A stretch of DNA of 64,000 bases from contig NZ_SMGE01000001.1 in NCBI RefSeq assembly GCF_004339525.1, positions 930,001 through 994,000 of the forward strand. Direction: 5' to 3'. How positions within the stretch are numbered: the stretch's first letter is position 1; each line of letters starts with the position of its first letter. Below, piece by piece: positions 58,618 to 63,551 of this stretch. Below the pieces are notes generated by a model. The model was not told the origin of the DNA and did no database searches. It saw only the letters and a program-made list of their open reading frames with translations. The DNA is from Flavobacterium sp. 90 (lineage in GTDB: Bacteria > Bacteroidota > Bacteroidia > Flavobacteriales > Flavobacteriaceae). A program made the translations under genes and the position numbers.

Positions 58618-59400
58618 ATGAAAATTAGTTTTTATTTCTTTATTTTTTGTTCCTATTTCACTTCTTATTCACAAGAGTTTTTTGATAATGATAAAATAGA
58701 AAGCGGTAAACAAATTGAAGAATTAAATACTATTATTCTACAGAATCCAAGTGCAGAGAATTATTATTACAGAGGTTATAATAATTATATAAGTGAAAAT
58801 TATCCGGAAGCATTGGCTGATTATAACAAAGCGCTCTCGATAACACCAAATGATTTTAATATTTATTTTAGCAGAGGAAATCTAAGTATAAAATTAAAGG
58901 ATTACGAAAGTGCCATTGCAGATTTTTCAAAATGTATTTCTTTAGATAAAAATTCTCAAAAGGCTTATTTTAATAGAGCTTTTGCCGAGAGAAAAATATT
59001 CAATCGTACGGGTGCAATAGACGATTATTCAAAAAGTATCGCTTTAAAGCCTGATAATAACATATCAGCCTATCAAAATAGGGGATTATTAAAAAAAGAA
59101 CTAAATTTACACAAGGAAGCAATAGCCGACTTTGATAAAGTTATCGCAATTGACCCAAAATCAGTAGATGCGTTTCAGAATAGAGCCATTTCAAAAGCAA
59201 TGCTTAATTCAAAAGATGCTTTACTTGATTTTAATGAAGCTGTAAAATTAGCGCCTGAAAATTCAGAAGTATACTTTAATAGAGCACTTTATTTTATTAA
59301 TTTCAAAATAAAAGGAGATTATTGCTCAGATTTAAAAAAAGCTTTTAATTTTGGCTATTTACCGGCACAAGAATTATTAATAGAACTTTGTAAAATTTAA
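58618..59400 (+). CDS. Secreted TPR-repeat protein
   Basis: 260 residues. Signal peptide MKISFYFFIFCSYFTSYSQ. Six TPR-like units follow, for example NYYYRGYNNYISENYPEALADYNKALSITP, FNIYFSRGNLSIKLKDYESAIADFSKCIS and VDAFQNRAISKAM (written as short blocks). TPR arrays bind other proteins. A CAGTTTTCAGTCGCAGTTTT tract lies just before the start, a repeat form I associate with Flavobacterium. Rrf2 begins 9 bases after the stop. Confidence 0.82.
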   Translation: MKISFYFFIFCSYFTSYSQEFFDNDKIESGKQIEELNTIILQNPSAENYYYRGYNNYISENYPEALADYNKALSITPNDFNIYFSRGNLSIKLKDYESAIADFSKCISLDKNSQKAYFNRAFAERKIFNRTGAIDDYSKSIALKPDNNISAYQNRGLLKKELNLHKEAIADFDKVIAIDPKSVDAFQNRAISKAMLNSKDALLDFNEAVKLAPENSEVYFNRALYFINFKIKGDYCSDLKKAFNFGYLPAQELLIELCKI

Positions 59401-59409
59401 TACCTAAAG

Positions 59410-59823
59410 ATGTTATCACATAAAGCAAAATACGCCCTTAAGGCCTTACTTTATTTAGCAGAACAAGACGAAAATCACATTTCTAAAACTATAGAAATTG
59501 CTGATGGAGCCAACATTCCTAAAAAGTTTTTAGAGCAAATTTTATTAGATCTAAAACGTGGTCGTTTTGTGAGTAGTAAACAAGGAAAATTTGGCGGATA
59601 TTATCTTATAAAGTCCAAAAATGAAATAACTCTTGCCGAAATTCATCGATTATTTGACGGTGCAATTGCACTTTTACCTTGTGCTTCTTTAAACTTTTAC
59701 GAACCTTGTTCTGATTGTAAAACCGAGGAAGAATGCAGTCTGAGACATGGTTTGATGCTTATTCGCGACGAAACTCTTAAAGCGATGCAAGGCATTACTA
59801 TAGCCTCCCTTATAAAAAAATAA
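59410..59823 (+). CDS. Rrf2-family transcriptional regulator, Fe-S type
   Basis: 137 residues. The winged helix is complete: MLSHKAKYALKALLYLAEQD, ISKTIEIADGANIPKKFLEQILLDLKR, GRFVSSKQGKFGGYYL (about 51-66). Four Cys cluster at residues 91, 100, 103 and 109, close to the spacing used by IscR/RsrR-like proteins to hold an Fe-S cluster. Members sense Fe-S status, cysteine supply or redox/NO. An operator-like inverted repeat and promoter lie just downstream, in front of a Cys-ending leader ORF and a TonB receptor gene, so it probably regulates those. Confidence 0.92.
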   Translation: MLSHKAKYALKALLYLAEQDENHISKTIEIADGANIPKKFLEQILLDLKRGRFVSSKQGKFGGYYLIKSKNEITLAEIHRLFDGAIALLPCASLNFYEPCSDCKTEEECSLRHGLMLIRDETLKAMQGITIASLIKK

Positions 59824-59835
59824 AAAAATATTTTC

Positions 59836-59861
59836 TAATTCCTAGTAAATCGATAGAATTA
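59836..59861. promoter_or_regulatory. Operator-like inverted repeat upstream of the leader ORF
   Basis: TAATTCCTA and TAGAATTA face each other around GTAAATCGA, an imperfect dyad of 26 bases. It sits immediately upstream of, and close to, the -7 box at 59867, and just after the Rrf2 stop. It is the obvious Rrf2 site candidate, not shown. Confidence 0.42.
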
Positions 59862-59866
59862 ATATT

Positions 59867-59874
59867 TATATTTG
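59867..59874 (+). promoter_or_regulatory. -7 box (TATATTTG) for the leader ORF and TonB receptor
   Basis: An exact TAnnTTTG match followed by CA, 38 bases before the leader ATG at 59913 and 197 before the receptor ATG. Confidence 0.55.
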
Positions 59875-59912
59875 CAGAAAATAATTAACAAATCATTTAC
59901 AAAGTTTTAACC

Positions 59913-60023
59913 ATGAAAGTAAATTACAGTAAATCAGGTGTAACCAAAAATCTTTTGCAAAGAAATCAAAATCAATTCACTACCGTGAATAGCAATTCGT
60001 TTATGATATGTATGTGTTGGTAA
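59913..60023 (+). CDS. 36-residue leader-like ORF ending in a Cys-Met-Cys-Trp tail
   Basis: ATG at 59913, TAA at 60021. The peptide begins MKVNYSKSGVTKNLL, is hydrophilic, and ends SFMICMCW. It has two Cys, three Met in all and one terminal Trp in the last six residues. It lies between promoter 59867 and the TonB receptor start (48 bases after its stop), on the same strand. Cys-rich peptide ends ahead of uptake genes are a known design for cysteine-sensing leaders in other bacteria; that role here is inference. I saw no attenuator hairpin after it, so coupling could be through translation or Rho. It may also be a small peptide product in its own right. Confidence 0.6.
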   Translation: MKVNYSKSGVTKNLLQRNQNQFTTVNSNSFMICMCW

Positions 60024-60071
60024 AAAAAAATTTATTTTAAATTCTACTAATCACATATACTTAATCTGAAA

Positions 60072-62633
60072 ATGAAAAATTCTATAAAAAACACCCTAAC
60101 AATATTATTATTTTTAACCTTCTCTGTTTCGTTTGCACAAACTGTTGAAGGTATAGTTTTTACAAATGAAAATATTCCTCTTGAAGCAGCAAACATTGTT
60201 ATTAAAGGAACAACTTCTAATACAACTTCTGATCAAAACGGAAAATTCATAATTGATACAAGAGGAAAAGTTCCTTTTACAATTCTGGTTCAATATGTAG
60301 GATATAAAACTACTGAGTTAGAATTTACTGCTTTGCCAACAGCTCCATTACAAGTAACTCTTAACGAAGAAAATGCACTTGTTGAAGTTGTAGTTTCTTC
60401 AAGACGTCGTATAGAAAAAGTTCAGGATGTGCCAATTGCAATATCAGTTATTACTGGTAAACAAGCTGAACAAACCGGAGCTTTTAACGTAAATCGTATT
60501 AAAGAACTTGTTCCATCTGTACAACTTTATTCTTCAAATCCTAGAAATACAGGTATCAATATTCGTAGCCTTGGTTCACCATTTGGACTTACAAATGACG
60601 GAATCGATCCCGGAGTTGGTTTCTATGTAGACGGTGTTTATTACGCTCGCCCTGCTGCTACAACTTTAGATTTTATTGATGTAGAACAAATCGAGGTTTT
60701 ACGTGGGCCACAAGGATCATTGTTTGGTAAAAACACGACTTCTGGAGCGTTCAACATTACTACTCGCAAACCAAGTTTTACTTCTGGCGCTGACTTCGAA
60801 GTAAGCTACGGAAATTATAACTTCTTGCAAGCTAAAGCTTCTATTACCGGAGGTTTGACTTCAAAATTAGCTGGTCGTATATCTTTTTCAGGTACTCAAC
60901 GTGATGGTTTAATCGATAATGTTGCTACAGGAAGACCTACAAACACCTTAAACAATCAAGGAATTAGAGGTCAATTACTTTATACTCCTTCAGAAAATAC
61001 CAATATTATATTAGCCGCAGATATTACAACGCAACGTCCTGATGGATATGCGCAAGTAGTTGCCGGAGTTGCTCCAACAAAAAGAGCTGCTTACCGTCAG
61101 TTTGATGCTATTATTAAAGACCTGAATTATCAATTACCAAGTTTAAACGCTTTTGATCGTAAAATTGACCACGATACTCCATGGCGTTCAAATCAGGATA
61201 TGGGAGGTATATCTTTGAACATTGATACAAAAATTGGAGGCGGAACTCTTACTTCGACTACAGCTTGGAGATTCTGGAACTGGGATCCTTCAAATGATAG
61301 AGATTTTACAGGATTACAAGTTTTAGCAAAATCTCAAAACCCAACAAGACAAACTCAATTTACACAAGAAGTTCGTTATGCTGGTCAGCTTACCTCTAAA
61401 ATAAGTGGTGTTGTAGGTGTGTTTTTCATCGACCAAACATCAAAAACAAATGGTACTGAAGAATCTGGTAACGCACAATGGAGATTTGCTCAAAGTACTA
61501 CAAGTAACTTATGGAAAACTCCAGGACTTTTTGAAGGATACGGAATCAAAACTGACGCTAGTATCAGATCATCAAGTGCTGCGGTATTTGGACAATTAGA
61601 CTGGGCAATTACAGAACGTTTCCATATATTACCAGGTTTAAGATATAACTTTGACAAGAAATCAGCTGATTATTCCCGTAAAACATACGGTGGTCTTCAA
61701 ACAACTGATCCTGCATTAATTGCTTTGCAAAAATCAGTTTACTCAGATCAGGCATTTACATCAGATACTGATAATACTGACTTCTCAGGAAACTTAACTT
61801 TGACTTATAAAGCGTCTGACAAAATCAATGCTTATGCGACTTATGCAAAAAGTTACAAACCAGTTGGAGTAAACGTAGCCGGACTTCCTACAGATTCAAA
61901 AGGTCAGCCTTTATTAGATCTTTCGGTAATCAAACCAGAGAAAGTAAATCATTATGAAATTGGAGTAAAAACTTCTCCTTTCAGAAATTCAGTATTCAAC
62001 TTAGCATTCTTTAATACTGAGATTAAAGATTTCCAAACAAACGTTCAGGCTGCTGAATTAGGTGTAAACCGTGGATATCTTGCTAATGCAGATAAAGTAC
62101 GTGTAAGAGGTGCAGAATTAGACGCTAGTTTTGTAGTAAACAGAAATCTAACAATAAATGGTGCTGCAACTTATACTGAAGGTACTTATGTGAAATTCAC
62201 AAATGCACCACTTCCATTAGAAGAAACAGGAACTACTGTTGGAGGAGTTCAGGTAGCTTATAAAGATGTTTCAGGAACAGATTTGCCTGGTGTATCAAGA
62301 TGGGCAGGATCATTGGGTGGTGAACTTTCTGATGATGCTAAATTCTTTGGAAACGCTGGAAAAATATTCCTTGCTGTTGATTCTTATGCACGTTCTGAAT
62401 TTTCTTCAAGCCCTTCAGCTTCAAAATACTTAATCGTTCCGGGTTATGCGATCTTTAATGCTCGTTTAGGTTTCCGTGCTTCCGAAGGTTTATCGATTCA
62501 CTTTTGGGGACGTAACTTATTGAACAAAGATTACTACGAACAATTATTGCCTGCTGGTGGAAACACAGGACAATATGCAGGTGTAATTGGAGATCAAAGA
62601 ACATACGGAATCACATTGAAATACAAATTGTAG
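60072..62633 (+). CDS. TonB-dependent outer-membrane receptor with carboxypeptidase-like N-domain
   Basis: 853 residues. Signal peptide ends at SFAQ (about residue 23), carboxypeptidase-D regulatory-like domain about 25-105 (VEGIVFTNENIPLEAANIVIKG), then plug and barrel. Plug marks: ISVITGKQAEQTGAFNVNRIKELVPSV, GVGFYVDGVYYARPAATTLDF and IEVLRGPQGSLFGKNTTSGAFNITT (short pieces). This is the single-component receptor type, not SusC. Substrate unknown; the preceding Rrf2 and Cys-ending ORF hint at sulfur or iron-sulfur supply. Followed by a terminator at 62661. Confidence 0.92.
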   Translation: MKNSIKNTLTILLFLTFSVSFAQTVEGIVFTNENIPLEAANIVIKGTTSNTTSDQNGKFIIDTRGKVPFTILVQYVGYKTTELEFTALPTAPLQVTLNEENALVEVVVSSRRRIEKVQDVPIAISVITGKQAEQTGAFNVNRIKELVPSVQLYSSNPRNTGINIRSLGSPFGLTNDGIDPGVGFYVDGVYYARPAATTLDFIDVEQIEVLRGPQGSLFGKNTTSGAFNITTRKPSFTSGADFEVSYGNYNFLQAKASITGGLTSKLAGRISFSGTQRDGLIDNVATGRPTNTLNNQGIRGQLLYTPSENTNIILAADITTQRPDGYAQVVAGVAPTKRAAYRQFDAIIKDLNYQLPSLNAFDRKIDHDTPWRSNQDMGGISLNIDTKIGGGTLTSTTAWRFWNWDPSNDRDFTGLQVLAKSQNPTRQTQFTQEVRYAGQLTSKISGVVGVFFIDQTSKTNGTEESGNAQWRFAQSTTSNLWKTPGLFEGYGIKTDASIRSSSAAVFGQLDWAITERFHILPGLRYNFDKKSADYSRKTYGGLQTTDPALIALQKSVYSDQAFTSDTDNTDFSGNLTLTYKASDKINAYATYAKSYKPVGVNVAGLPTDSKGQPLLDLSVIKPEKVNHYEIGVKTSPFRNSVFNLAFFNTEIKDFQTNVQAAELGVNRGYLANADKVRVRGAELDASFVVNRNLTINGAATYTEGTYVKFTNAPLPLEETGTTVGGVQVAYKDVSGTDLPGVSRWAGSLGGELSDDAKFFGNAGKIFLAVDSYARSEFSSSPSASKYLIVPGYAIFNARLGFRASEGLSIHFWGRNLLNKDYYEQLLPAGGNTGQYAGVIGDQRTYGITLKYKL

Positions 62634-62810: not shown

Positions 62811-63551
62811 ATGAAATTTGTCAAAACACTGTTCTTATTTGGCCTTATAAGTCCATTTTTATCGGCACAAAATCTAAAGAAAACAGATCAGCAAACCCTT
62901 ACCTGGATTAGATATTATAACATTTTACCTATAACGGAAAAGTGGGCAATTCACTCTGAATTTGACAATCGCAGTTTTTTAAATCCTGTTCACGAAAATC
63001 TATTTGTTATAAGAGTTCAAGGTCGTTATCGCGTCAATAAATTTGCAGAATTAGGAGGAGGTTTTGCTTATTTTAATGTAAATACTCAAGATCCTAATAT
63101 CGATCCGGATTTCTCTGTTCCGGAATATCGAGTTCAACAAGATATTACTTTCATAAACGATATTGGAAAAATTACATTTCACAATCGTTTTCAACTTGAA
63201 GAACGGTTTATTCAAAAAACCAATAAAATAGAATTATTGGATGATTTTTCTTTTGCTTACCGATTTAGATATAGATTACAATCGACTTTTGATCTTTGGA
63301 AAAAAGAAAAACGAAGCCTAAAAGCAACTATTTCTGATGAAATCATGTTTAATTTTGGAGAAGATAATAGAAAAAATACGTTTGATCAAAACCGATTTTA
63401 TGTCGCATTGCGTTATCATTTTAATCCTAATATTGGTTTAGAAGTTGGCTATCTAAAAAGCTTTCAGCGACGTGCAAGCGGTCTTGATTTTTATGATCGG
63501 GATATTATTCGTTTTACGCTTTATCATAGAATTGACAGGAAAATTAGATAA
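62811..63551 (+). CDS. DUF2490 outer-membrane beta-barrel protein
   Basis: 246 residues. Signal peptide MKFVKTLFLFGLISPFLSAQ. The mature protein is an alternating strand/turn barrel with YYNILPITEKWAIHSEFDNRSF near the N-terminus and LEERFIQKTNKIELLDDFSFAYRFRYRLQ in the middle, ending GLDFYDRDIIRFTLYHRIDRKIR (pieces). This is the DUF2490 pattern; function unknown. Own weak -7 box (TATATTCG near 62781). It follows the receptor terminator, so regulation may be separate. Confidence 0.86.
   Translation: MKFVKTLFLFGLISPFLSAQNLKKTDQQTLTWIRYYNILPITEKWAIHSEFDNRSFLNPVHENLFVIRVQGRYRVNKFAELGGGFAYFNVNTQDPNIDPDFSVPEYRVQQDITFINDIGKITFHNRFQLEERFIQKTNKIELLDDFSFAYRFRYRLQSTFDLWKKEKRSLKATISDEIMFNFGEDNRKNTFDQNRFYVALRYHFNPNIGLEVGYLKSFQRRASGLDFYDRDIIRFTLYHRIDRKIR

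Follow-up and report, generated by a model that had tools for sequence, protein, structure and literature searches.

A cysteine-codon leader peptide predicted ahead of a TonB-dependent receptor gene in Flavobacterium

The window analysed here is a stretch of 64,000 nucleotides from Flavobacterium sp. 90, and the locus of interest lies near its end. An Rrf2-family regulator gene (59410..59823, +; PF02082, E 2.6e-32; TIGR00738 above cut-off) is found directly upstream of a 36-codon ORF (59913-60023, +; MKVNYSKSGVTKNLLQRNQNQFTTVNSNSFMICMCW, then the TAA stop), the tail of which reads Met-Ile-Cys-Met-Cys-Trp. An imperfect dyad, CCTAGTAAATCGATAGA (59841-59857), is placed just 5′ of the box TATATTTG (59867..59874, +), which stands 38 bases ahead of the ATG of the ORF and is presumably a −7 promoter box of the Bacteroidota type. 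Taken over 59841..59863 (CCTAGTAAATCGATAGAATTAAT), this operator-like dyad overlaps the promoter and is a candidate Rrf2 site, conserved in the promoter alignment and with pattern matches elsewhere in the same genome.

The ATG of a TonB-dependent receptor (60072..62633, +; CarbopepD_reg_2, Plug, and beta-barrel domains: PF13715, PF07715, and PF00593) follows 48 bases past the stop of the short ORF, and this receptor is the presumed regulated gene. A DUF2490 protein gene comes next (62811..63551, +; PF10677, E 1.1e-39) and is possibly cotranscribed with the receptor; in the best 80 of 503 receptor loci, a DUF2490 match was present in 61, at variable distance. The ORF, its Cys-Met-Cys-Trp tail, the spacing of the box, the dyad, and the 48-base gap, all listed in the preliminary description, were confirmed by the sequence.

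Profile searches gave no Pfam or NCBIfam match for the short ORF. In Rfam, the region 59300-60300 produced three weak matches to unrelated families, all below the gathering score, and thus no riboswitch or T-box. No terminator-like site was found between 60023 and 60072. Within the 64-kb window no sulfur gene adjoins the receptor, the sulfate operon of this genome being located elsewhere (near G000:C1:1587000). Solved structures named no substrate for the receptor, the best match being a pesticin receptor over residues 99-288.

Of the 503 loci found with the receptor in named genomes, the best 80 were retained, and all of these come from the Flavobacterium group. Every one of the 80 has, ahead of the receptor, a short ORF carrying Cys among its last eight codons, and in 77 the tail of this ORF ends in Cys-x-Cys; the exceptions are L035, with Cys-x-x-Cys, and two loci that have a single Cys, L041 (MMCMWW) and L082 (MMCMS). 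The distance from the leader stop to the receptor ATG is 46-59 nt in 79 of the 80, and 133 nt in L087. The constancy of tail and gap, which had been put forward as a check on the leader, is therefore borne out. No Cys-tailed ORF was found upstream of any of the 275 other genes of these related loci, and of the 39 genes compared within the window, each encoding 150 aa or more and with 300 nt of upstream sequence available, the receptor is the only one preceded by an ORF that ends in a Cys-x-Cys tail. A Cys-tailed ORF before this receptor is far above chance.

The receptor itself is unevenly distributed. Among the matches listed in a genus-wide scan, 80 of 249 genomes have a full-length orthologue with an identity of 60% or more, so many species are without it. 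The exact motif TGYATGTGYTGGTRR was matched in 9 of 60 genomes, three times as this leader (own genome included) and six times in unrelated places, and ATGTGYATGTGY is present at one place in the own genome.

Twenty more divergent orthologues of the genus were fetched, and each is preceded by a leader that contains two or more Cys (for instance MCMCMC, MCCMCMC, and MMCRCCF) and has an unrelated body. A collection of 94 leaders, that is, the one in the window, 78 of the 80 named loci, and 15 of the 20 divergent loci, shows a length of 34-37 codons in 87 and a gap of 45-59 nt in 93. Cys-x-Cys is found near the stop in 91, with Met as the middle residue in 81 of these (in MCMCMC leaders the first Cys pair was counted, not the last). 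It is followed by Trp and the stop in 39 of the 91 and directly by the stop in 33, an indication that Trp is not essential. The sequence TAnnTTTG stands ahead of all 94 leaders; its first base is 42-51 nt from the ATG in 91 of them and closer in L121, L133, and L137.

The leader body is partly conserved within the main clade and changes completely between clades, with Cys-x-Cys persisting. The bodies contain a single Cys in 2516 residues compared with 0.62% Cys in the window proteins, and no such ORF precedes the 275 other genes, so the Cys codons themselves seem to be held in place. Four loci have lost a Cys of the tail, namely L041, L082, L162 (MMCMWW), and L166 (IMYMC), the last two coming from a later search. 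Codon usage in the 91 tails is biased at the first Cys (TGT 88 vs TGC 3, against a background of 281:189; P 3.5e-16, relatedness not corrected for) and only slightly at the second (63:28; P 0.07, with the same lack of correction). The bias toward TGT could reflect slow wobble decoding.

The tail codons are complementary to the start region of the receptor, a feature absent from the preliminary description. In detail, TGTATGTGTTGGTA (60009-60022, +), which comprises the Cys-Met-Cys-Trp codons and the first two bases of the stop, can pair with TACTAA-T-CACATATA (60045-60059, +), that is, receptor bases −27 to −13, in a predicted hairpin of 14 bp. The fold of 60000-60092 has a z-score of −1.97, with 6 of 200 shuffles folding as well. 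In 38 nonredundant loci out of 91 leaders (L087, L133, and L137 dropped), the mean z-score is −1.58 for tail plus gap, +0.79 for the gap alone, and −0.22 for the whole leader region.

Duplexes were calculated for 41 of 93 leaders (L087 dropped). The tail-gap duplex averages −11.6 kcal/mol, compared with −6.6 for shuffled tails (the own tail being better in 39 of the 41) and −6.8 for the promoter region; it barely beats the gaps of other loci (−11.2), and pairing is poor in L122, L133, and L134. Nearly the same helix is paired in 86.6% of 574 cells in the 41 loci, compared with 19-54% for slid versions, a comparison in which the named helix is favored by having been chosen from these same sequences.

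The pair at the third base of the Cys codon is kept for the first Cys in 34 and for the second in 23 of the 41 aligned sequences. Paired cells, compensatory cells, and the covariation score of the helix did not rise above shuffles in this alignment, the columns of which vary little, and a compensatory change is found in one sequence only (L056). Over all loci, change in the gap does not clearly follow the use of ATA as the middle codon (the gap has T in 2 of the 5 leaders with ATA and in 14 of the 81 with ATG), and RNAalifold retains just five pairs at −0.02 kcal/mol. Among distant leaders, the z-scores are near zero or mild in L124 (0.22), L173 (−0.13), L180 (−0.18), and L171 (−0.79), and lower in L125 (−1.86), L172 (−1.72), L142 (−1.60), L174 (−1.58), and L126 (−3.40). 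In the receptor orthologue of G141 (L148:10196-10267; leader MIQYRLFKRPYCCFYQKQKSFKR), the Cys codons are located in a strong hairpin (z −3.40), unlike those of the main clade.

A translational attenuator is recognized by leader codons complementary to the start region, a property that is conserved at these loci, and the hairpin is read here, on these folding and alignment data, as a conserved and slowly changing element with a presumed function. The conservation of the gap element may come from DNA binding, as this element resembles the promoter dyad.

It is concluded from the sequence comparisons that the ORF preceding the receptor is most reasonably a cysteine-codon leader peptide. The mechanism considered likely is a leader sensing cysteine through its Cys-Met-Cys codons, with translational attenuation of the receptor by the tail-to-start hairpin and a TATATTTG promoter under Rrf2. 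The leader would be transcribed from this promoter, probably under Rrf2 control at the dyad, and its translation would report on the supply of cysteine and perhaps of methionine. With Cys-tRNA plentiful, the ribosome would read through and leave, the tail would pair with −27 to −13, and the 14-bp hairpin would hinder initiation at the receptor. With Cys-tRNA scarce, the ribosome would stall on the tail, the hairpin would be blocked, and the receptor would be made.

Translational attenuation is favored because the receptor leader has no terminator and its tail codons can pair with −27 to −13. Classical attenuators of the trp and his type carry, in the leader peptide, codons for the amino acid that is sensed, and the leader-codon principle is common to them and to the receptor leader, which differs in having no terminator. 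In the erm genes, translation is attenuated by pairing of the leader with the initiation region. Here likewise leader codons would pair with the initiation region, and stalling would open the start; the receptor leader differs in that it is proposed to sense an amino acid and to operate with no Shine-Dalgarno sequence. The principle of leader pairing with the ribosome binding site is given in the available text of PMC13236596. For Flavobacterium johnsoniae, the part of PMC6847099 at hand describes mRNA structure near the start codon as tuning initiation and Shine-Dalgarno sequences as absent, so that repression by a stem that ends at −13 is plausible.

The same cysteine-sensing leader could have another output, namely Rho-dependent termination in the gap, with a ribosome stalled near the stop shielding the RNA and a ribosome that has left giving Rho access ahead of the receptor. 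The receptor locus has no intrinsic terminator. For the Cys leaders of Actinobacteria, which likewise lack one, a similar output is proposed in the accessible part of PMC1262725, and according to the portion consulted of PMC9426467, Rho is active upstream of a TonB receptor in the CruR operon. The gap, however, is short (48 nt) and AT-rich with no C-rich stretch, and Rho would leave the conserved tail-gap complementarity unexplained; this output is regarded as unlikely.

The Rrf2 gene is a constant neighbor of the leader. It is found in 79 of the best 80 of 503 loci, and in each of the 77 loci in which gene and leader could both be placed it ends less than 200 nt from the ATG of the leader. 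The protein has four Cys in the arrangement C-x8-C-x2-C-x5-C, a pattern that would suit an Fe-S or redox sensor, and CymR and IscR are among the solved structures that its sequence matches. As the gene adjoins the leader and the dyad is shared with other promoters, Rrf2 is plausible as a transcriptional layer, acting through putative binding at the dyad.

The left part of the 3′ arm of the hairpin (60045..60059) is similar to the promoter dyad. The gap element could then be mainly a second Rrf2 operator, either a roadblock or a half-site, with control at the level of transcription and the leader only as a fine adjustment. In many loci the gap copy has CTACTAAT and the preceding A/T bases in common with the promoter dyad, the copy in the window matches the operator pattern with three mismatches, and the gaps of L172, L173, and L174 contain the full TCTA..TAGA palindrome. 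On the contrary, the right half in the main clade is not an operator half; it mostly reads YACATATA or CATATATA and pairs with the Cys-Met-Cys codons, and L124 and L125, with no neighboring Rrf2, still have Cys leaders. A gap element serving chiefly as an operator is thus quite improbable, and the hairpin-forming leader is retained as the preferred reading.

The sulfur connection comes from more distant relatives. In G171 and G209 the leaders end in SCCCCCCC and LCSCCCC, and both are located inside a sulfate-assimilation operon, between sulfite reductase and the receptor and with no adjacent Rrf2. The gene order there is cysH-cysD-cysN-P271-cysK-cobA-cysJ-cysI-leader-receptor-TauE/cysG, in which P271 is a 271-aa ORF and some of the names are our reading of the proteins.

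Outside the genus, 395 order-level and 395 phylum-level genomes were scanned at a threshold of E 1e-60, and the receptor was matched in 15 of them, in one case (G951) with only 28% identity. A clear Cys leader, with tails such as HCCCCCCC and RCCMCS, is present in five of the 15 (G510, G865, G761, G709, and G700); G891 is ambiguous, and in the other nine genomes with a match no Cys leader was seen.

Gene context was compared in 14 genomes, three within the genus and 11 beyond. Six of them (G171, G209, G510, G761, G865, and G884) have the receptor next to genes of sulfate assimilation, and in five of these six a Cys leader precedes it, G884 being the one with no leader. In three further genomes, G427, G354, and G324, the ORF lists show other neighbors. 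The membership of the target gene in sulfur assimilation is given by orthology only (6 of the 14 genomes). The sulfur link that the preliminary description had suggested is independently supported by these orthologues and by a second leader of the own genome with a classical attenuator layout, described below. The receptor is probably an importer of a sulfur-bearing nutrient, as predicted from this context.

A tail rich in Cys and Met before a TonB receptor could also sense metal or thiol as an arrest peptide, the nascent Cys-Met-Cys binding Cu(I) and relieving or causing the stalling. The precedent is CruR, a DUF2946 protein of 145 residues that contains CXXC and RAPP and is described in the part seen of PMC9426467 as a copper-responsive uORF before the TonB receptor BfrG. 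The two are alike in that a uORF with Cys residues precedes a TonB receptor, and they differ in that the ORF studied here has no Pfam match, hence no DUF2946, and no CXXC plus RAPP layout. Moreover, the Cys are the last codons and would still be inside the ribosome when read, and the receptor is tied to sulfate assimilation in the genomes named above, copper genes having been outside the scope of that search. Metal sensing is accordingly judged very improbable. A small functional protein or the precursor of a modified peptide as the product of the ORF, for which the conserved length and the partly conserved body in the main clade could speak, is hardly credible given the missing Pfam and NCBIfam matches and a body wholly changed between clades around a retained Cys-x-Cys.

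Leaders of this kind are known from another phylum. Cys-codon leaders with no terminators were predicted for cys operons in Actinobacteria (Mycobacterium, Propionibacterium, and Bifidobacterium) in the available part of PMC1262725, and mycobacterial ones are cited as tested (Canestrari 2020) in that of PMC13236596. As far as these texts describe them, they share with the leader of the window a short ORF, Cys codons near the stop, a position before sulfur genes, and the lack of an obvious terminator. They differ in the phylum, in the target, which is a TonB receptor here, and in the Cys-Met-Cys of this clade as opposed to a run of Cys. The mycobacterial leaders are leaderless by the title of the work, whereas here the box ends 38 nt before the ATG and a 5′ UTR of ~30 nt is expected; the tail-to-start hairpin is proposed here, unlike in the Actinobacteria leaders as far as described.

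For Flavobacterium psychrophilum, leader-peptide attenuation upstream of amino-acid operons is reported in PMC9723704, in the consulted portion of which cysteine is not mentioned. A literature search lying mostly outside subscription journals gave no report, in the texts as available, of Cys leaders in Bacteroidota, which is weak evidence of novelty. If the proposed mechanism is true, cysteine-sensing leader peptides occur in Bacteroidota, a TonB receptor is linked to sulfur nutrition, and the locus offers a clean test of RNA pairing as a translation switch in bacteria whose translation starts without Shine-Dalgarno sequences.

Other candidate cysteine attenuators, likewise absent from the preliminary description, were found at the heads of sulfur operons in relatives. 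In G171, G209, and G141, tandem Cys leaders (e.g., MIFTVCNMCCCMGKISAETTIA) are followed by terminator-like hairpins with T-runs; these attenuator-like leaders of the divergent sulfate operons are located at L146:2221-2510, L147:18131-18372, and L149:12868-13128. Of the 30 cysH loci fetched (132 genomes match), 5 have clusters of Cys codons in short ORFs no more than 700 nt away, and in the other 25 none were found.

In the own genome, a copy of the dyad at L226 (G000:C1:4634297) drives MKNYSLYIIPFMCCSEICCMSNDAMKWR, which is followed by a strong terminator, a second leader MRSNRNTNIMMQCCLMKIPCWRMQ, and a glutamate dehydrogenase-like gene with NCBIfam matches below cut-off (G000:C1:4634286-4634696; L226:1490-1900; relatives L254-L283). 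Cys leaders and terminator are found in 29 of 30 fetched loci of this type, and L275 has neither in the part inspected. According to the folding, a stall at the last Cys codons would give an antiterminator of −18.0 kcal/mol, and after passage of the ribosome only the terminator, of −15.0 kcal/mol, would form. By its predicted folds, the leader of the gdh-like gene is a textbook cysteine attenuator layout, and it fits that of the classical attenuators.

The dyad pattern, allowing up to three mismatches, gave 117 matches in the own genome, compared with 76 when the pattern was reversed, and chance therefore accounts for most of the matches. Matches with at most one mismatch are four, namely the promoter of the receptor leader, L226, L225, and L227; the copy at L227 has no visible sulfur link. 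At L225:1501-2266 (G000:C1:691184), the one-mismatch dyad and a TACCTTTG box are placed ahead of an ECF sigma factor gene. Seven matches have two mismatches, and two of them were inspected. One (L234:1500-1657; G000:C1:5087598) is positioned ahead of a SAM riboswitch (RF00162, 76.6 bits), and nothing is evident near the other (L228).

An operator-like dyad is thus common to the receptor promoter, the second Cys attenuator, and the promoter of the SAM riboswitch, which suggests a sulfur regulon under a shared operator, to which Rrf2 would bind. The two-mismatch dyad preceding the SAM riboswitch at L234 further suggests a two-layer sulfur regulon in Bacteroidia, in which an Rrf2-type operator is combined with a Cys leader or a SAM riboswitch and the receptor leaders would be Shine-Dalgarno-free translational attenuators pairing Cys-Met-Cys codons with an A/U-rich start; this wider scheme is tentative and somewhat more doubtful than not.

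The sulfate operon of the own genome (L141) showed no convincing Cys leader, the only Cys-bearing short ORF found there being antisense and overlapping the end of the local Rrf2 gene. The operon region thus carries an Rrf2 gene of its own (MLSKKTKYGIKAL...; L141:15745-16155), distinct from that beside the receptor leader, and its promoter has a similar dyad.
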